Assembly (NCBI GenBank): GCA_028751875.1
Contig: CM054144.1
Coordinates: 17,582,044 to 17,646,043 of the forward strand
Source: Rapana venosa
Taxonomy: Eukaryota > Mollusca > Gastropoda > Neogastropoda > Muricidae
Direction: 5' to 3'
DNA length: 64,000 nucleotides
Part shown: positions 54 through 63,861 of the stretch, piece after piece
How the letters are laid out: the number at the start of each line of letters is the position of its first letter
Position numbering within the stretch: position 1 is the stretch's first letter
Position numbers and translations under genes: made by a program
Notes under the pieces: model-generated
The model's database searches: none
Told to the model about the DNA's origin: nothing
What the model saw: the letters and a program-made list of their open reading frames with translations, nothing else

Positions 54-45835
<45,782 letters not shown>

Positions 45836-52446: not shown

Positions 52447-55400
52447 TCTTTTTTTTTTTTTTTTTTTTTTGGGGGGGGGGGAGGGGGGAGGGATTTTTTT
52501 TCTTTTATTTTTCATTTTTGGATTTGTGTGGATTTTTTTGGAGGGGGGGGGGGGGGGGGGGGGATAGGGTTTTTGTTGTTGTTTTTGGTTTTTGTTGGGT
52601 TGGTTGGGGTTTTTTTGGTGGGGGGGGGGGGGGGGAGAGTTTTTATGGGAAACACTTTACGATTTTCTGTGCAGATGTTTGATATTTTTCATTCTGTTAA
52701 CTACAGGTTGTGCAGGTTGTTGAGAATAACCTCAGGAACCTGAATCTGTCTGGCCATGTCGGATTTGACAGTTTACCGGACCAACTGGTCAACAAGTCCG
52801 TCTCTCAGGGATTCTGCTTCAACATCCTGTGTGTTGGTTAGTTCTGCTTCTTAACTGCTCAGTGCTCTGACTCGTCTTCAGTAGAATTTGTGTGTGTGTG
52901 TGGATGTGCTTAGGGTCTGAACATGTGGGAACATGTGTGTTTGAGTGTGAATGCATCACTCTTGTGTGTGTGTCACCACTGTGTCGGTGTGTGTGCATTT
53001 AATACATGTTCTAACCAACCTCTTTCTCATGTGTGTGTGTGTATGTGTCACATTGTGTGTGTATAGTGTGTGTGTGTTAGTGTGTGTGATTTCTTTTATT
53101 TCAAGGATAATGGGGTGGGGGGGGGGGGGGGGGGGGGGGGAAATATGTTGCCCTCTCATATGATTGATGAGAATTGAGACAGACAGAGAGATGGAAGAGA
53201 AGGGGGTATGCACCCACAGACCACACACACTCACACACAGAGAAACAGTCACACACACACAAACTGTACACAAACTGCACACAACACATGCACACATACA
53301 CACACACACACACAACATACACACACACACACACAACACACACACAACCACACACACCACACATACACACACACATGGGAAAGAGGTTGGTTTGAACATT
53401 ATTAAATGTCTTCATGAAGAAGTTAAGTCAGAGGGGAACATTACCTCTTTGTGTGAATGTTCACAGGTTTACAAAACACATTAATACTAGTACTAGTAGA
53501 ATTCTATTAGTAATAGAATACATGATCATCATGGTCATCTCATCTGTCAGTGACTCAGTCACAGTCACCCAGACTGTCTTTCTACTGTGAAAACAAACTT
53601 ATATAATTGTACAGCTTACATATTATTTATTTATTTATTTATTTATTCTTTTATATCGAGGATAATGGAATAAGCACTCATGTGCTTTTTTACATCCAGT
53701 CCCTGTGTGTATGCGGTTTTGTAAATTTTGTCATCCGTTCCCACTGGCACACAATCATGACAATGGCCTACTCTTACGAAAAGCGGAACTGGATTTAACG
53801 TGTGCGCAAGATGTTCTGCGTGCGTTCGCACACGGGGCCTCGGTTTATAGTCTCATCCAAAGGACTTCGACATTCAGTTCGATTTTTTTGTCAAACTGGA
53901 AAGAAAGGGCAAGCCGCAAGGCTGGGAATCGAACCCACAACCTCACGGTTTACTTGTTGGCAGGCGAATGTCTTAACCACCCTTCCACCTTCCTTCCTTT
54001 ATGATTTACAAGCTTATTATAAGACATATGAAGTTTCTTATTTTCCCCTTTCTTTTTTTAAACTGCTAGAAACAGTATGATTATTACTATCAGACCCTAT
54101 GAAGTATCATTCAAGTACATACACTTTGTCAAGGCATGGCAAATTTATTTAAAAACTCCATTAGTGACTGGTAGTTGTACATGAAAATGTTACATGCATG
54201 TAATTGTAAATGTGAAACATGGTCTGACCTTTTGAGAGAAATTTAAAGTCTTGAGTCATTAAAAGTGTGTAGCAATGTGGTAAAATGCCATCAGGAACTA
54301 ATATTTTGGTAACAGTCATTCAATAAGAACAAAATTAAGTCTTAGTGGGTGTAAAAGATGGGCATACATAATTAATCATCATTCTCATCAAAGTAAAACA
54401 TTTTAGCATTGTCATGAGAAAATAAACATATCATTTTTGCAGTTTAAAAAATTGTTAAATTTAAACACAAAGTACAGAATTTTCAGATAAACTTTTGGTA
54501 ATTTTTTTTTCTCCAAAAATGTCAACACTGTTTCTTAAACTTAAAGATCACATTTCTCCATATTTGTATTACTTATTTATTAACAGTTATATTGATAAAT
54601 ATTTTCAGGTGAAACGGGCATTGGCAAGTCCACCTTGATGGACACCCTGTTCAACACCAATTTCGACTCCACCCCAAGTTCCCATGATTTACCTGGGGTC
54701 AAGCTCAAGGCTCACACCTACGGTATTGTGATGAATGGCATAAGATACTGACCAGTATAATTTATTATCTGTAGATACCCATGGGGACATGATTGCTCAG
54801 TGGTCGGAGCACTCGCTTCTCCCCAGCCAAGGTTAAGCAGCATCGAGCGTGGTTACAAATTGGATGGGTGACCGTTTGCACGCCTTGGCTTCAGTACAGT
54901 CCCCCAGTTCACCCAGCTGTAAATGGGTACCTGCCTCTTAAGGGTCAGGGCAGGTAAAGCAGCAAGGGAGAGGAGATGGGTGCCGCCCTCAATATGCTTT
55001 CCCCTAGAAAAGTGAGGTCTCTGATGCCTCTCTCCCCTACGACCTCATAGGTTATGGGACACCTTTACCCTTTACCTTTAGATACCCAACTGGTGGGATC
55101 AGTTGCTTTAGATACTGACCAGTGTAATTTATTACCTACAGAAGATACCTTTCTGATGTGATAAATTGCTTTAGATACTTGTGTAGTATATTTCCCTGGA
55201 TATGTAACTGAAACGAGTATAAATCATTCTTTTCTTTGGTGATGATAAGGATTTTGCTTGATCTGTACTGTTATTTTGCTATTGTTGTTCTTAGGGTAAT
55301 TTTTTTTGGTTTGGGCATGGGGGGGGGGGGGGGGGAGCAATTTTAGTACTTAAAGTCTAATTTTTTATAAGTAAAACTGTAGACTGACAATTTTACCCAG

Positions 55401-58400
55401 TCATTTGACCTATTTGTGTAATCTAGAAGGTTCATCCATTGTCAGTCTCTCTTTCTGTCTTTCTCTAGTTCTATGCTATGATTTCGTCATCCTCTAAGTG
55501 CAATTTTTTCCTGTGAATGATTATTTGTTTTTATCATTGTATTGTGAGTCATGTTTTCTTGTATTCCAGGAGATATTTTCCTCAGTTTAGGACATGACCT
55601 GATCTATGATTTATAGCCAAAGCTAAGTTTAGGTGATTCATGTGTTTGAATCAGACCTGTGTACATAAAACAGAACATGTTTTTAAATTAGTGTGGATTA
55701 GGTTTACAAATAGACCAGTGTATGCAAAAACAACGGGGGGGGGAAAGGTTGGGTAGTCTGGAGGGTTTGTTTTTCTTTTCTTTGCTCCTTGGCTAGAGCT
55801 CTGAGGTTTGCCAATAGTGAGATTTTGCGTATGCAGTCATTTTTACCTACCATTAAGGTAGCCACATTCCAACTTTGGGGATGGAGGGGGGTTTGAAAGA
55901 AAGAATTGATGTTCCCAGGAATGCTGACTTCTTTTTTTGGAGATAGTTTGAAGTGGAATGCTGGTTGGTTTTTTTAAAAGATACTATAAAGTTTTGTTTA
56001 GTGGGGGAAAAGGGGGGGGGGGGGGGGGGGGGGGTAATTTCAGAGTTGCACAGTGATGCTATGTATTCATTCATTGTATAAAGATGAAAAGTAAGAAATG
56101 TGGATTATTTTGTTTGTAGTGTGAATTTGTAATTTGTTAGTGAACAAGATGGGATTAAGCTCTGTCCACCTTTTCCCCCTCACAAAGTGAAAGAAAGCAG
56201 TGAGAAGTGCTAAAAAAAAATCATTGGGGGGGTGGGGGGGGGGGGGGGGGAGACAGTTTGAGGGTCTGGACCAGAGCTAACCAGTTTTGGGTAATTTAGC
56301 CAAACTCATATCACTTTATCAACTGTGTGTGTACGTGTTTGGGGGAGGTGTTATATGGCAGCCTTGCAATTATCGTATTAGCTTTTCTGATTTTCTTCAC
56401 TAGATTATTTGTAATAGATTTCATAGGAAATGTATCATTTTACAACTCCTTGTTCTTGTTTGTTTGTTCTGTTTCTGTCGATTCTTATTCTGAACTATTC
56501 TGTATTTCTACCACATGACCCATATTTTGAGAAAAAAATATTATTGTTTTATTGAATGATTTTCTTTAATGAAGCATTGCTAGAAATGTGTAAATTGCAG
56601 ACTTGACTGAGAAGAATGTTCGTCTAAAGTTGACGACGGTCGATACCACTGGTTTCGGTGATCAGATCAACAAGGCAGACAGGTAAAGGGACAGCCAGGT
56701 GGTAACACTTATAGTGACCACAGGCACCTGTGTGATAAAACACTCCTGTATGCATCACCCGTACACACACCTATGTGATGAACTTTTCTTTTCTTGTATC
56801 ACCTGTGCAGCTGTGGATGAAAAAAACAAAAAGCAGCTTTTCTGGTGTATTGTTCATTGGCTGTCTTTCTGCTCACCTTGTGCTGTGCTGTCTTTTTTTT
56901 TTCCCTTTCAGAGCTGCGCGAGAAGAATGTTCTGTTAAAACTAACGGTGGTCGACTCGGTGGGGTTTGGGGATCAGATAAACAAAGAGGATAGGTGAGCA
57001 AGCAGTGGGTGTTGTGCTGTGCTGTGGCCTGCAGCATGCTGGTTCTCTTGCTGTGCTGCACAGGGTGCTGTGCTGAGCTTTGCTGAGCTTCCTTCCCTCC
57101 TGTTGTGCACGCACACCTTCCACCCATGGTTTTTCTGTCACTGCCTGCTAAGTCTTCAGCTCTGTAGTGTAGATCTGGTTCCCCTAGACTGGTTTGGAGA
57201 GGTTGATTGATGTGAACGCATGCCACATTTAGTTGAAAGTTGTGCTTTCTTTGTTTTAGTTTCTGGGAAGTTTTTTTGTTTTTTTAAGTGTTGTTTATGT
57301 TGTGGTCAGTTATATCTTAAGTGTCAATGTATAAAGAGATAAACAGCAAAATATGTACACATGCTAGAACTAACATTAGATATTGTCATTATGGTATTCT
57401 GATTTTGAGTAGTAATTGTTGTAAAGCATGACTAATAGAAAAAAATCAAAATTATATGTTGTATAGCAAACTTGTAGTGTATGCAAGTATATAAAACATC
57501 AAAAACATGGAAAGAAAAGGCAAAATTCTATGTGTAAAAAGGTTAATTGTATGGATTTTAAAAAGTTGTTTGCACATAACATTAAATCTGTATTTCAAAA
57601 GTCAAACACCTGTAATTTATACTCTGATGGTAAATTGGAATTCATATTTAGATCAAAGATCAGAAGTGGTGAAGTATCATCAATGAAAACCATAGGTATT
57701 TGGGCGGTATCTGTCATAAATGTCAGGCTTCAAGAATATGTTTTCCGTGAAGCAGAACACCAGACAATCCCCCCAACTTCAAGTAGTATGTGTTTTGAAC
57801 TCATTTTGGGCACCCATCTGCACTTCGCTCATGCACTCGTTTTATTCTAAATTTGCATTTAGAGGGGTTTGTTTTAGAGCAAAGATCAAAGCATTCATCA
57901 TGAAACATGCAAGTGTGGCCTGAGCCCACGCTTCTGGAGCAGAAACTGTACAGCACGGTGGATGACCTGCAGGCAACTGCTGAATTCCTCAGAAGATCTG
58001 GTCTCACAACATAACCCAGGCAACGCAAAGAAGAAGAAGAGATGAAACATGCATAGTTCACTCTGAAGAGAGCAGTTTGTATGTGTATACTGCTCTGTGT
58101 GTTCAACTGTGATAATGGCCATGAGTGCATGGTCTTTAATGTGTACATGATGTCCAACATGCATGCACTAGAGAGCAGACATGCTTCTGTTGCAAATAGT
58201 AAGTCAGTGTCATATGCATGTGTTACAAAGGCTCTAGGAGCAAGCATCAATGAACTTTTTTATTCCTCTTGCAGATTATTTAGTTAGTTTGCATGCATTC
58301 CAAACAGTCCTGTGTAGGGACAGGGAAAAAAAACTTTCAGTGGTCAGAGCATGTTGTAGTTCCCATAGGACAGTAGTTTGGGTTCAGAATGAGTCAAGAA

Positions 58401-58758: not shown

Positions 58759-61700
58759 ACATACACACACATAATAATAATAATAATAATAATGTATGGA
58801 ATTTATATAGCGCTGAATCTTGTAAAGCAACAAATCAAAGCGCTCAGATGACTTTACAAAAAAAAATTTTTATAAATCAAGGATAATGGAATAACACTCA
58901 TGTGCTTTTTTACATCCAGTCCCCGTGTGTATGCGGTTTTGTAAATTTTGTCATCTGTTCCCACCAGCACACAATGGCCTACTCTTTCGAAAAGCGGAAC
59001 AGGATTTAACGTGTGCGCAAGATGTTCTGCATGCGTTCGCACACGGGGCCTCAGTTTATAGTCTCATCCGAAGGACTTTACACACGCACACGCACGCACA
59101 CACAACACACTTACTCGCTCACACACACTCTTAACATGGCTTAACTAAAGGGGAGCAGCAAAGTCGATGATAAGGAGTTTTAAAATTCCTGTTTTCATCA
59201 CAGTTGGCATTTGTTTTTTCTGTGAGCATACATTTTAAATACTTGTACGTGTTCATGAATGTACTATTTAGAGAGAATGATAGGGGAAAGAAATGCTTCA
59301 TTTTATTTTGCTGCATTTTGTAATGTGTATTCATTGCCTGTTTAGTTTCTATGCTTCGTGTTTTTTTGTTAATCCAAAATAGATTAAGACAATTAGTGCA
59401 TGTGGTCGTTCAGTTTTACATTTAGTGTAAAATTAGAGGATAGGAAGAGAACTGATGCGAAGAGTATTGTGCATCAGAGAAGTGATATATGTGTAGATAC
59501 AAATGGGGAGCAGGAGTTGTGGGGGTTAGAGGGGGGGAGGAATGGGATATGAATGCTTGAATATTATATATTCTGGATATTGATGGATATGCAGCATCCA
59601 TGATTTTGTATTTTTTGTTTGTTTTTTATTTCAGTATCTATGTGGCATTGTGCCATACTATTTTAATTTGTATTTATTTTTTAAACAGACATGAAATAAA
59701 TCAAAACAGAAAAGTTGAAAAGACTATAAACAAATTTCAAAAAAGGAAAGTAGGAATGTGCTAGGAGGACAGAAAATGCTCTGAGTGTGTATGTGCGCAC
59801 GCACACATGTGCGTATGTGTACAATTGTAATTTTCGACAGAGTAGCATAGGTTTGAATTCTTTCTCTCATCTTTTGTTGTTGGTGTTTGGATATTGTGCA
59901 CATTGTTTCTCCCCTCATGTTCTTTCCCGATTGTGAGCACTCTGTTTTCCTGAAAGTTTTCCATGCAGTGCATTTCTTTTGGGCATGGGCCGTGCACTCT
60001 TGTCTCAATGTCACCAGAAGCTTGTCAGTGTGTTGTCACAGTAGTTCTGAGTTCATGTTTTCATAATTGTGGTAATTTTATCAGTTGATTGTAATTAGTA
60101 TTTCTGAATCATTTAATCAAAACTACCATGCAGCTTGTCACTCTTACCAGTTGTAAAGTATTTCTGAGTTGATGTTACCATACATCTCGTCAGTTCATTG
60201 AAGTGCAATTTCTGATTAACATTACCTTATGGCTTATCAGTTTGTTATAGTAATTTTTTTTAAGGGGAAGGGTGGTGATAGTACTGCTTTTGGGGCTGCT
60301 TTTGTACATTTTGTATGTATTCTCAGAACTTGTATGTTGGTTTGCTTACGTAGAACCTCTGAAACAACAGCAGTCTACAACACACATACATTACAATGAA
60401 TATATGTGTACATCCTAGATATATATAATTACACATAGTGTGTTCTATGATGTGCTGTATTTTCTCTTCCAGCCTGCCTTTAGATTTTCAGCTGCAGATT
60501 TTCAGACTATATGAACTATACAGCTTAGCATCTGTAGAGTTTAACATCCATTTGTTGTTGTTTTTTAAATCTTGCTATTGTAATATGTATAGAAATTATT
60601 AAATCATGAAGAAATGATCCGTGTCACCAAAAGCATGAAAAAACATAACAATGTTTGGGAGGTTTGATTTGCACAGTGTGTGAATGGTGAATGTATGTAT
60701 TGTCAAATGACCAGTCTGAATCACAAATGTGTGTATTGTCAAATGACCAGTCTGAATGGTGAATGTGTGTATTGTCAAATGACCAGTCTGAATGGTGAAT
60801 GTGTGTATTGTCAAATGACCAGTATGAATGGTGAATGTGTGTATTGTCAAATGACCGGTCTGAATGGTGAATGTGTGTATTGTCAAATGACCGGTCTGAA
60901 TGGTGAATGTGTGTATTGTCAAATGACCGGTCTGAATGGTGAATGTGTGTATTGTCAAATGACCGGTCTGAATGGTGAATGTGTGTATTGTCAAATGACC
61001 AGTCTGAATGGTGAATGTGTGTATTGTCAAATGACCAGTCTGAATGGTGAATGTGTGTATTGTCAAATGACCAGTCTGAATGGTGAATGTGTGTATTGTC
61101 AAATGACCAGTCTGAATGGTGAATGTGTGTATTGTCAAATGACCATTGGGAATATGTGTATTGTCAAATGACCAGTGTGAATGGTGAATGTATGTATTGT
61201 CAAATGATTGTCTTGAATGGTGAATGTGTGGTATTGTCAATATGAACGGTCTGATGGTGAATGAGTTATTGTAATGCGGTTTCTGAATTGTGAATGTGTT
61301 CCACGGTCAAATGACCAGTCTGAATGGTAGAATGGTGTGTATTGTCAAATGCCAGTCTGAATGGTGAATGTGTGTATCTGCATCCAAATGACTTTGGGAA
61401 TGGTGAGTGTGTTGTTATGAGGTCAAAATTGACCATTGGGAATATGTGTATTGTCAAATGACCAGTGTGAATGGTGAATGTATGGACTAATGTGTTTTAT
61501 TTTATTTTTATTTATTTATTATTTTATTTTGTGGGTAATGGAATAAGAACTCATGTGCTTTTTACATCCAGTCCCTATGTGTATGCGGTTTTGTATATTT
61601 TGTCATTCGTTCCCACCGGCACACAATGGCCTACTCTTCCAAAAAGCAGAACGGGTTTTAACATGTGCGCAAGATGTTCTGCGTGCACTCGCACATTGGA

Positions 61701-62246
61701 CCTTGATTTATAGTCTCATCCAGAAGACTTTTGGGGAGAGTGGAGCCGACACTGTTGTTAACTCCAGAGGAAAAAATCCTCTTGAAGGAGATTTGAATGT
61801 GGGTCAGCAGATCATGAGCGCATCTCTCTAACCACCGGGCTATCCCATCCCCCAATGACCAATGTGAATCAGGAATGTGTGTATTGTCAAATGACCAATG
61901 TGAATGGTAATGTGTGTAATGTCTAATGACCAATCTGAATCATGAATGTGTGTGTTGTTAAATAACGGATGTGTTGTTTTGTCGCAGCTGGAAGCCCATT
62001 GTGGACTACATCGATGCCCAGTTTGATGCTTACCTTCAGGAAGAACTGAAGATCAAGCGCATGTTGGACACTTACCACGACAGTCGCGTCCATGCCTGCC
62101 TCTACTTTGTCGCTCCTACAGGACACTCGTAAGACTCATTCCATTACCTTCTTTGATTTTCTTCTTTGTTTGGTGAGGTGTGGTCAAAGATAAACTATAA
62201 AATATGTAGCGGGTAACCTGTCTGTCTATCTCTCTCTCTCTCTCTC

Positions 62247-62277
<31 letters not shown>

Positions 62278-63861
62278 CTGATCAGCAGTTGTCAAAGTAC
62301 AGTAATCATTGTAACTTGCAGTCTGAAATGTTAATGAGTTTCCCTGTTCTGTGCAGTGTCTTTCTTAAGCTCAGATTTTGCTTTAAAAATCTTTTTATCC
62401 AACCAGAAATTATGAGTTTTTAAAGTTTGCTCCCCGTTTGATGTGACTTCAGAATGGAGACTTGCTGAAAATATTACATCACTAACAGTCTCTGGCGATT
62501 TTGCTTGTATTGACCAGAATTTCTCTTTTTAATGTCAGGTTGGTGTAATGAGGTTTTGCTCATAGCATTGTGTGTGTGTGTGCCTGCATGTGTGTATGTG
62601 CCTGCATTCATGTGTGAGAGTGTGTGTTTGTGCTTTCATGTATAGATGTATGTGTGGATGATTGCACATGCACGGGTATTGTTGACTGTTTCAGGCTGAA
62701 AGCCCTGGACCTGGTGACGATGAAGAAGCTGGACAGCAAAGTGAACATCATTCCTGTCATTGCCAAGGCAGACACCATCACCAAGACTGAGCTCAACAAA
62801 TTCAAGGCAAAGGTGAGTCCACACTCCAGTTTTCTCAAAACATAAGCTTGTATTCTATGTATTTTGGCATAAGCATGTACGTTATGTATAACTACATACT
62901 AAATCAGATGCATCGCCATAGTGTTCACAAGTGTTGTATGATCTGTTCTCTGTATAATTAGTTAGCATGTATGACTGTGAAAGTTGTTAGTGGTGTAGAA
63001 AAAAAAAAGGATGGGTTGTATGTTTCGAGTAATATGATTTGAATTAACCAAAAATGAAGGGTGTCATTGTGAGTTCATAAATATTTCTGTAACATTTTAT
63101 TTTTTTGCATGTAGTGGTTTCCGTAAGAGAAGTCAGAAGGTCTAAGTCATTTGAATTGCTAAACAGAGAAGTGTTGTTTTTATGTCACAGATTTTATTTT
63201 TACTGATATGAGTATTGACAGTGGATGTACTCTGTGTTCAGATCATGAGTGAGCTGACAGCCAATGGAGTTCAGATCTACCAGTTCCCAACAGACGATGA
63301 GACTGTTGCTGACACCAATAACACCATGAATGTGAGTAGAGCCTTACTGTGGGTGGCATCTGGAAAGATAATTAAAGATATGGGATTTTTTTGTTTGTTT
63401 TGTTTTTAGAGAAAAGGTTTCTGTATTTTTTGTTGTGTTTAGTTTTTGGGGGTTTGTGTCTTTCTTTTTAAACATTCTTACGCCAACTTTTGCCAGTAAA
63501 AGAAAATTATGCACATAACTGGTGCTGTTTGTTATGTAACAGATAAAAGGGAAAAATATGTGTCTCACTCTGTGTGTGTGTTGTGTGTGTGTGTGATATA
63601 TATATATATATATATATATAAATTAGCTTATTATATATCTACACAAAATAGCTTTTTCATCCATCCTCTACTTACTCGTTTGATGATGCTCATGCACAAA
63701 GGTATGGTGTGGTAAGAAATATATTTCTGCTGTACTCAGTTTTCTGGTTGTATTTGTATTTCAGTCCCACCTGCCATTTGCTGTGGTTGGCAGTAACGAC
63801 GAAGTGAAGATCGGCAACAAGATGGTCAAGGCTCGCCAGTATCCCTGGGGCACCGTGCAAG
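46245..63861 (+). CDS. SEPTIN6: Septin, SEPT6/8/11 (SEPT6) group, coding exons 1-8
   Basis: Septins are GTP-binding cytoskeletal proteins that assemble into hetero-oligomeric filaments. Coding exons are 46245-46268, 52707-52836, 54609-54722, 56601-56682 or 56912-56993, 61988-62128, 62695-62812, 63242-63331 and 63765-63861. With one exon 4 this gives about 265 residues. Visible features are [20 protein letters not shown] at the N-terminus, a P-loop GETGIGKST at 52-60, the G3 motif at 104-107 (DTTG or DSVG), and the septin segments [17 protein letters not shown] and APTGHS. G4 is AKAD at 187-190, followed by [13 protein letters not shown] and [11 protein letters not shown]. Full SEPT6-group proteins are about 430 residues, so the septin-unique element and coiled coil are off the right edge. 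The group (SEPT6/8/10/11/14; fly Sep2/Sep5) is known to lack the catalytic switch-I threonine. The symbol denotes the group, since invertebrates have not split it as vertebrates have. Confidence 0.95.
46376..46562. repeat. Tandem duplication just downstream of septin exon 1
   Basis: Two copies contain CCAGGAAGTGTAGTCTACTT, CCAGGTTCACACTGTAG, GTTCTGGCACTGCCGGCGG and GATGATGGGTAGGCCTAGCC. The first has an extra GTAGACTGTAGA-type triplication. At about 110 bp from exon 1 it may lie in regulatory sequence. Confidence 0.9.
47998..48171 (-). CDS. Candidate terminal exon of an unrecognised nested gene in septin intron 1
   Basis: A strong acceptor (GCGTTTTTTTTCCAG) precedes 57 open codons ending in TGA at 48000-47998. 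An AATAAA signal follows at 47930-47925, 68 bases after the stop. The peptide includes [33 protein letters not shown] and ends ARQHYYFD, which is rich in W/P/Y/D and protein-like. I do not recognise the family; a transposon-derived protein end is possible. Upstream exons would lie at higher coordinates on the minus strand (see 49161-49355) but are unproven. Confidence 0.4.
   Translation of the reverse strand, partial: DLLRHRKIQSRLKILNVQENYYIWPWPPMDDIAWVPMEDTHPVGNPDITARQHYYFD
49161..49355 (-). other. Possible upstream exon of the nested minus-strand gene
   Basis: An open stretch on the minus strand contains [20 protein letters not shown] followed by [20 protein letters not shown] and ends [10 protein letters not shown] directly at a consensus GTGAGT donor. 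There is no in-frame ATG, so it would need a further 5' exon. The opposite strand is also partly open with a cysteine-rich frame, so the coding strand is uncertain. CpG content here is higher than in surrounding introns. Continuity with 48171-47998 could not be established. Confidence 0.25.
51117..51808. mobile_element. Possible degenerate MITE, septin intron 1
   Basis: The left end TTAACCTCTTAACTGCC and the inverse of the right end (TAACCTTGACC..ACTGCC) are imperfectly similar. GTGCAAGTGCACCC and GGGGCAAGTTTAGCCCC stand at comparable places near each end. The interior is AT-rich and noncoding. The end match is weak. Confidence 0.3.
52707..52836 (+). CDS. SEPTIN6: Septin coding exon 2
   Basis: The exon is 130 nt (phase 0 in, 1 out). 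It encodes [20 protein letters not shown] followed by [20 protein letters not shown] and LCV. The acceptor is CTACAG and the donor GTTAGT. A second AG nine bases into the exon could be used as an alternative acceptor, removing VVQ in frame. Confidence 0.94.
53020..53390. repeat. TG-rich and CA-rich arms around a 24-bp G-run, septin intron 2
   Basis: TG-rich sequence (53020-53090), a G-run at 53117-53140 and CA-rich sequence (53222-53380) could pair into a long imperfect hairpin. A diverged stretch TTTATTTCAAGGATAATGGG at 53094 also resembles the SINE 3' end. Confidence 0.9.
53649..53990 (-). mobile_element. tRNA-derived SINE with a different head, septin intron 2
   Basis: Read on the minus strand, GTGGTTAAGACATTCGCCTG (A box) and GTGGGTTCGATTCCC (B box) form a clear tRNA-like head. 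The shared core GGATGAGACTATAAACCGAG and the common 3' end GAGTGCTTATTCCATTATCC follow. A (TTTA)n stretch at 53622-53648 lies at its 3' side. The head differs from the 42351 copies, so this is a second subfamily. Confidence 0.85.
54609..54722 (+). CDS. SEPTIN6: Septin coding exon 3 (P-loop)
   Basis: The exon is 114 nt (phase 1 to 1). It encodes (G)[18 protein letters not shown], then [19 protein letters not shown], so it carries the Walker A/G1 motif and the switch-I region. The donor is GTATTG. Confidence 0.95.
54784..55082 (+). mobile_element. SINE with 5S-rRNA-like head (SINE3 type), septin intron 3
   Basis: GGTTAAGCAGCATCGAGCGT, then GGTTACAAATTGGATGGGTG and ACCG match the internal promoter half of 5S rRNA (GCTAAGCAGGGTCGGGCCTGGTTAGTACTTGGATGGGAGACCG). 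Just upstream, TTGCTCAGTGGTCGGAGCAC resembles a tRNA A box, suggesting a tRNA/5S chimeric head. The body contains CAGCTGTAAATGGGTACCTG and a T-rich, CTTT-type end. It has no coding capacity. Confidence 0.75.
55083..56600. other. Septin intron 3, downstream part
   Basis: It holds G-runs at 55319-55335, 55734-55743, 56012-56034 and 56226-56250, and the truncated SINE at 55783. The rest is AT-rich. No further copy of exon 4 was found between exons 3 and 4a. Confidence 0.8.
55783..55880 (-). mobile_element. Truncated copy of the 15935-16312 SINE family
   Basis: GGCTAGAGCTCTGAGGTTTG, GAGATTTTGCGTATGCAGTC and AAGGTAGCCACATTCC align with the corresponding stretch at 15950-16040. Only the 3' part is present. 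Confidence 0.65.
56601..56682 (+). CDS. SEPTIN6: Septin exon 4a (alternative G3/switch II exon)
   Basis: The exon is 82 nt (phase 1 in, 2 out) and encodes (D)[19 protein letters not shown] followed by DQINKAD(S). It has a consensus GTAAAG donor but a poor polypyrimidine tract (TAAATTGCAG). It is the same length and phase as the exon 229 bp downstream, so either one can join exons 3 and 5. Confidence 0.93.
56912..56993 (+). CDS. SEPTIN6: Septin exon 4b (alternative G3/switch II exon)
   Basis: The exon is 82 nt (phase 1 in, 2 out) and encodes (E)[19 protein letters not shown] followed by DQINKED(S). It has a strong acceptor (T-run, then CCCTTTCAG) and a GTGAGC donor. It differs from 4a at 7 of 28 residues and at many synonymous sites, with no stop or indel. 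This indicates an old, selected duplication rather than a recent assembly artefact. Confidence 0.93.
57907..58014 (+). other. Short protein-like open stretch, unassigned
   Basis: It reads [20 protein letters not shown] then [15 protein letters not shown] and a stop. The composition looks like a genuine coiled/helical protein end, and an AAGAAGAAGAAG tract follows. There is no clear acceptor or poly(A) signal, and another frame is open too. It may be a fragment of a retrocopy. Confidence 0.2.
58771..58860 (-). mobile_element. 3' end of another SINE with (AAT)n tail
   Basis: On the minus strand the sequence reads GAGCGCTTTGATTTG, AGCGCTATATAAATTCCATA and then (ATT)n. This is a common 3'-terminal form of metazoan SINEs. 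It abuts the fragment at 58866. Confidence 0.6.
58866..59080 (-). mobile_element. tRNA-derived SINE, head-less copy, septin intron 4
   Basis: It shares the 3' half and core of the 42351 family in reverse orientation (TGCGGTTTTGTAAATTTTGT on the plus strand). It stops at the core and runs into CA-rich sequence. Confidence 0.75.
60679..61490. repeat. 36-bp minisatellite, septin intron 4
   Basis: The unit TGAATGGTGAATGTGTGTAT + TGTCAAATGACCAGTC repeats regularly from 60679 to about 61170, with AGT/GGT variants, then becomes irregular to 61490. More diverged units continue after the SINE at 61525-61858. Because 36 is a multiple of three, both strands show long open frames (213 and 163 codons) that are not genes. 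Confidence 0.95.
61525..61858 (-). mobile_element. tRNA-derived SINE, full-length copy inside the 36-bp minisatellite
   Basis: The minus-strand head GGATGGGATAGCCCGGTGGT, B-box-like CATTCAAATCTCC, core and 3' end match copy 2 at 42713. Minisatellite units continue on both sides, so the SINE inserted into the array. Confidence 0.8.
61859..61970. repeat. Continuation of the 36-bp minisatellite up to septin exon 5
   Basis: Diverged units (AATGACCAATGTGAATCAGG, TGTGTATTGTCAAATGACC and so on) resume after the SINE and reach within about 20 bp of the exon 5 acceptor. Confidence 0.8.
61988..62128 (+). CDS. SEPTIN6: Septin coding exon 5
   Basis: The exon is 141 nt (phase 2 to 2). It encodes (S)[19 protein letters not shown] then [20 protein letters not shown] and FVAPTGH(S). 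The acceptor is GTCGCAG and the donor GTAAGA. A 36-bp minisatellite reaches almost to its acceptor. Confidence 0.95.
62129..62694. other. Septin intron 5
   Basis: It has a (TC)n tract at 62228-62276 and TG-rich sequence at 62568-62640. Nothing else seen. Confidence 0.85.
62695..62812 (+). CDS. SEPTIN6: Septin coding exon 6 (G4 motif)
   Basis: The exon is 118 nt (phase 2 in, 0 out). It encodes [20 protein letters not shown] then [19 protein letters not shown]. It includes AKAD, the septin form of the G4 guanine-specificity motif. The donor is GTGAGT. Confidence 0.95.
62813..63764. other. Septin introns 6 and 7
   Basis: Around exon 7 the sequence is AT-rich. Intron 7 holds a (TG)n(TA)n tract at 63568-63621. 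No other feature. Confidence 0.85.
63242..63331 (+). CDS. SEPTIN6: Septin coding exon 7
   Basis: The exon is 90 nt (30 codons, phase 0-0) and encodes [20 protein letters not shown] then [10 protein letters not shown]. It is bounded by GTGTTCAG and GTGAGT. Confidence 0.95.
63765..63861 (+). CDS. SEPTIN6: Septin coding exon 8 (last in window)
   Basis: The exon is 97 nt (phase 0 in, 1 out) and encodes [20 protein letters not shown] then [12 protein letters not shown]. The donor is GTAAAC. The following exon, expected to start (V)EN.. in phase 1, lies beyond 64000. Confidence 0.94.

Follow-up and report, generated by a model that had tools for sequence, protein, structure and literature searches.

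Tandem homologous exons in a snail SEPT6-group septin gene, probably mutually exclusive and older than a gastropod subclass split

We analyzed a 64-kb stretch of Rapana venosa DNA (the window), located at C11:17582044-17646043, which contains most of a plus-strand septin gene, and found that its exon 4 occurs in two adjacent homologous versions, 4a and 4b. With a probability of about 0.9, we read these as a mutually exclusive tandem duplicated pair in the sole SEPT6-group gene found in this 2.28-Gb genome, a pair that would have arisen before the Caenogastropoda/Heterobranchia split and been kept under constraint in both copies. Placed on human SEPT6, the predicted swap replaces only the β3 strand, the G3 motif (DxxG) and switch II as far as the residue that follows the β-bridge Asn-Lys. 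As judged from protein records, the pair is common to two gastropod subclasses and is already in databases as isoform entries.

Gene structure and frame logic of the exon pair

The product, 406 residues long without exon 1 and open in the same frame with 4a or 4b, combines a Septin G domain with a C-terminal coiled coil and is closest to SEPT6/8/11, which places it in the SEPT6 group. The Septin domain of Pfam (PF00735) scores 338.4 bits in the 4a form and 336.5 bits in the 4b form. Among solved structures, the 4a form best matches human Septin-6 (2qag_B, 675 bits, residues 5-399), and residues 337-390 match the Septin-6 chain 6wbp_A. Outside exon 4, 368 of 378 residues agree with a Babylonia areolata record, the closest found, and 352 of 378 with Littorina. 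The protein resembles SEPT6-group septins (SEPT6/8/10/11/14; 2qag_B) in its Septin G domain and in the absence of the catalytic threonine. In an alignment made by eye, that position of switch I, encoded by exon 3, is a glycine here and a threonine in a SEPT2-type paralog of the same genome. Septins without this threonine are described as class II pseudoGTPases in the available text of one source (PMC10731463), and both isoforms should belong to that class because the glycine lies in the shared exon 3. The human 2qag_B chain has one form of the exon-4 segment, whereas the snail gene has two.

All exons that we placed are on the plus strand; exon 1 of the septin gene was looked for and not found. 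Exon 2, which encodes the N-terminal part, spans 52707..52836 or starts at 52716. Its start (52692-52720) has two AG acceptors that are in frame and separated by 9 nt, so that three residues could be added or dropped, and the N-termini of relatives, compared by eye, favor the acceptor at 52716. Exon 3 (54609..54722) carries the P-loop GETGIGKST and switch I and ends at the donor gtattg. It is followed by exon 4a (56601..56682), an intron of 229 nt (56683..56911), exon 4b (56912..56993) and exons 5 (61988..62128), 6 (62695..62812), 7 (63242..63331) and 8 (63765..63861); in coordinates extended past the window, exons 9-11 lie at 64329-64485, 67110-67242 and 67795-67953. The intron that separates 4b from exon 5 contains a 36-bp tandem repeat (60681-61481, about 22 copies, and 61854-61963, about 3 copies). 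An interspersed repeat of about 210 bp, with copies roughly 80-95% alike on both strands, is frequent in the septin introns and also occurs elsewhere (window positions 42469-43418, 53649-53867, 58867-59080, 61533-61731 and others, as well as loci L009, L011, L013 and L018).

The earlier note on this DNA had described 4a and 4b as tandem exons of 82 nt each, with GT-AG borders, entered in phase 1 and left in phase 2, and its coordinates, lengths, borders and peptides all proved exact. The codon joins are G/AC...AG/C for 4a and G/AG...AG/C for 4b, and each exon links exon 3 to exon 5 in frame. Using both together leads to a stop 27 residues past the join, and using neither leads to a stop after 20. 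By this frame rule only single-exon products give protein, and each productive mRNA would take one copy. The two versions are identical at 55 of 82 nucleotides and at 20 of 27 whole residues. Their dN is 0.18, their dS is saturated, and codons have changed at 11 of the 20 conserved residues, a combination that points to an old duplication under protein constraint. We detected no third copy in the window or among the 19 loci compared, and five other septin loci have one copy of the segment each within the 10-20 kb examined per locus. Searched as DNA against the whole genome, 4a and 4b each match only themselves; the same search did not detect the sister exon, which is 67% alike, so it excludes close copies only.

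The acceptors of the two exons differ sharply. At positions -20 to -4, pyrimidines number 6 of 17 before 4a and 17 of 17 before 4b, whose tract forms the 3' end of the 229-nt intron, and they number 9-12 of 17 before six other exons examined. The donors are CAG/gtaaag for 4a and TAG/gtgagc for 4b. These counts bear out the contrast in acceptor strength that the earlier note had read as fitting a regulated choice of 4a, and the contrast does fit such a choice; no regulatory signal beat its control. As to the docking-site type of exclusive exons, in which competing RNA structures would pair a docking site strongly with selector sites, the fold of the 481-nt region is no better than that of shuffled sequences (z -0.13). 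Six inverted repeats of only 14-18 nt occur in 7.3 kb of window DNA, the one sequence examined for them, and are taken as chance without a control; one of them might mask the 4b tract and another adjoins the 4a acceptor. Downstream of 4b, YGCY, a Muscleblind-type motif, occurs 8 times in 150 nt, and this cluster was rejected as a candidate signal: a composition-matched Markov control gives an equal count (mean 8.1), and the plus strand has a second run of this kind.

Competition between the acceptors is the simplest model of exon choice, in which the weak 4a site would be set against the strong 4b site and nonsense-mediated decay would remove the wrong products. A frame shift followed by decay is one route to exclusivity listed for human exclusive exons in the available text of one study (PMC5740500). 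The early stops also suit a different reading, in which the exons are not strictly exclusive and a double or null form is produced deliberately, as an unproductive switch to reduce the septin level; the 229-nt intron leaves room for the joint splicing that this would take. We consider such a switch unlikely, since constraint on both peptides argues that both are used in protein. Two segments are found in one of the 134 protein records described below (P0005), with 4a partial there, and this count is a weak point against the switch because unproductive forms would hardly be listed.

The pair in other snails and its age

A search of relatives for a second copy, which the earlier note had proposed, revealed the same pair in other snails. 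Three protein searches with a 47-residue stretch around the exon, against a clustered protein set, gave 134 distinct records, and the exon-4 segment is present in all 134. The 4b signature occurs in 19 of them, comprising 18 records and P0005 from Biomphalaria. P0005 alone has two segments, with 19 residues of 4a fused to the whole of 4b in the same order as in the window. Eleven further records, classed by sequence and taxon, are of the 4a type. These 30 records come from Caenogastropoda, Heterobranchia or six short contigs. We looked up the taxonomy of Littorina, Aplysia, Physella, Bradybaena, Babylonia and Haliotis, and we take the remaining 4a/4b-type species to be members of Caenogastropoda or Heterobranchia. 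The 4b type is absent from the records of Lottia, Haliotis, Gigantopelta, a chiton, Octopus and bivalves, although the Haliotis record stands for 14 sequences and may hide a second version, as may the records of other outgroups. Part of the 4b signature, EKNVLLK, is repeated in a bird SEPT10 (P0077).

Both versions are present in 5 of the 14 named snail species: Littorina saxatilis, Aplysia californica, Physella acuta, Biomphalaria glabrata and Bradybaena similaris. That the other nine have a single version carries little weight, because clustering of the protein set could conceal a second one. Four species have record pairs that differ only inside exon 4 and are identical elsewhere. Littorina X1/X2 show seven differences within residues 89-114, which are the window's own seven, and Aplysia X2/X1 show seven within residues 89-115. 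Nine differences separate Physella X2/X1 (residues 90-116) and nine separate Bradybaena 27164/27165 (residues 91-117), the latter being consecutive gene models, not named isoforms. All such isoform entries come from annotation, which may in part be predicted. The six contigs, 1.55-3.1 kb long with frames of 396-415 residues, carry one version each: P0006 and P0010, both with 413-residue frames, are of the 4a type, and P0013, P0015, P0019 and P0021 of the 4b type. They are most likely spliced transcripts, because the gene spans more than 15 kb here.

The pair has several of the features by which tandem exclusive exons are recognized. The exons are adjacent and homologous and agree in length, phase and type of splice site; the septin protein is disrupted if both exons are included or both skipped; and in other species, annotated record pairs show either exon by itself in otherwise identical products of the same gene. 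Taken together, the frame logic, the record pairs in four species and the one-version contigs support the mutually exclusive use put forward in the earlier note.

The peptides of the window recur unchanged in other genera. Its 4a is identical at 28 of 28 residues to Littorina X1 and Babylonia X1 and at 27 of 28 to Pomacea, and its 4b is identical at 28 of 28 to Littorina X2 and Batillaria. Loss of 4a from close relatives together with a lack of constraint, which the earlier note had named as the pattern that would count against the pair, is thus not what we see. Some observations would nevertheless suit a 4a that is a decaying or rarely used duplicate, included through splicing noise beside 4b as the sole working exon. 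Its acceptor is weaker than that of 4b, it diverges faster between the subclasses (Aplysia differs from the window at 6 of 28 residues in 4a and at 2 of 28 in 4b), and the G3 glycine is alanine in four of seven heterobranch or heterobranch-like 4a rows and in none of 18 4b records. The open frame and intact splice sites of 4a, the identities just given and the two short contigs that carry it make this reading very improbable, and we keep to a pair in which both exons would serve.

The age of the duplication was assessed with a tree of 41 hand-picked rows of 28 residues, in which the short contigs were grouped with heterobranchs by likeness. Trees with a single 4b clade fit no worse than the unconstrained tree. 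Forcing independent duplications makes the fit worse by 18.9 log units, with a p-AU of 0.013 and with p-KH (0.057) and p-SH (0.06) not below 0.05. The 4b residues R3, K5 and L8 are present in both subclasses. Exon 4a is nearer to the single form of other molluscs, with Lottia beside 4a in the tree, so only 4b has a clear signature. Separate duplications in Caenogastropoda and Heterobranchia would agree with the K5 that caenogastropod 4a has in common with 4b, and they are not rejected by the KH and SH tests on their own; the shared R3, K5 and L8, the AU value and the order of the copies in Biomphalaria, which is that of the window, render them improbable. Over these few sites, one old duplication before the split most likely fits better than two. 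The Caenogastropoda/Heterobranchia split is several hundred million years old.

Other changes at this junction appeared among the records. In Bradybaena similaris, a second SEPT6-group gene (P0018, P0049) has only the 4b type and may have lost 4a, and in one record of that gene six residues are added where exons 4 and 5 meet. A Mytilus trossulus record (P0075) has about 19 extra residues immediately ahead of the exon-4 segment, at the same junction; they may stem from an added exon.

Residues exchanged and partner septins

In the alignment to 2qag_B, exon 4 covers SEPT6 residues 87-114, and the seven differences between 4a and 4b lie at positions 87, 89, 94, 99, 102, 103 and 112. They fall before and along β3, two residues before the aspartate position, and at both middle residues of DxxG. 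One directly follows Asn-Lys (110-111 in our own mapping of the names used in a review), and the aspartate, glycine, Asn and Lys themselves are equal in both window copies. According to the available text of that review, the G3 glycine binds the γ-phosphate, the aspartate binds a water on Mg, and paired Asx residues, followed by Lys in the SEPT6 group, make up the β-bridge between two G-interface subunits (PMC8640212).

From the position of these changes, the earlier note had guessed that the gene could make two subunits with different nucleotide handling or G-interface behavior. Their location in β3, G3 and switch II supports that guess only in part; a difference in GTP hydrolysis is unlikely, because the shared exon 3 encodes glycine at the catalytic threonine position. 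What the swap most likely adjusts is the G-interface or the hold on the nucleotide, and the two forms would differ in G-interface strength, in their partner among SEPT2-group subunits or in nucleotide hold. The heterobranch 4a might be a nucleotide-locked form, since the glycine that binds the γ-phosphate is alanine in four of its seven rows. Some bivalve records have alanine at this position too, so the substitution by itself is tolerated. Isoforms of the window and of Littorina differ at seven residues only and so offer a natural mutant pair for the roles of β3, G3 and the β-bridge in a septin without the catalytic threonine, and Aplysia, Biomphalaria and Littorina make the role of the pair testable.

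Septins choose their neighbors by subunit identity, and the SEPT2 group faces SEPT6 across the G-interface. Through this exon pair, a single gene provides two forms of the strand and loop engaged in pairing across that interface, seemingly kept since before the subclass split. We typed possible partner loci by 45-47-residue pieces of the other septin loci. SEPT2 is the best match at C23:39.89 Mb and C24:1.64 Mb, and SEPT7 is the best match on C10 and C16. The piece at C23:40.14 Mb matches SEPT1 and then SEPT2. L017 3571-3696 (C23:40.13 Mb) is a SEPT2-group paralog whose switch II is unusual (DTPGYNDAVNAEN). Another SEPT2-like piece was located at C23:39.95 Mb, where the match list also has unrelated matches to a short part of the query. 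The SEPT2-type switch II segments differ, reading GFGDSLNST at two loci and GYNDAVNAEN at one. The genome has at least three SEPT2-group loci beside the one SEPT6-group gene found, and a two-faced gene with several partners suggests that exon choice could be partner choice: 4a and 4b would give two G-interface faces, and splicing would determine the SEPT2-group subunit that enters the filament. We regard this idea as possible but rather doubtful. If true, splicing would set the composition of septin polymers, a way of which we found no description in the accessible text of the open-access literature searched.

Relation to known alternative exons

Tandem duplicated exon substitution is a well-known type of event, and the snail pair resembles the cases in the available text of two studies in that adjacent homologous exons enter one per mRNA, leave the product identical elsewhere and are ancient (PMC9741552, PMC5740500). 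The terms septin and SEPT6 are absent from the main text of the first of these studies, as are septin and SEPT from that of the second. We found no account of alternative exons in the septin G domain in the accessible parts of the open-access literature, including PMC8640212, PMC10731463 and PMC9013439, and accordingly no prior description of a homologous pair that swaps β3 and switch II of a septin.

The nearest septin case is human SEPTIN3, which also has a mutually exclusive exon event, there linked to a 3'UTR repeat. It concerns the SEPT3 group, and the available preprint text neither places it in the G domain nor calls the exons homologous (PMC13174678). Human SEPT6 splicing, as given in the available part of one paper, consists of a cassette exon, E11, with products of 427 to 429 residues (PMC2764345), and differs from the snail pair. 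Among gastropods, exons 12a and 12b of Lymnaea Cav3 are likewise alternative exons that change one functional element, in that case the pore of an ion channel, a protein unrelated to septin (PMC9694082, available text).
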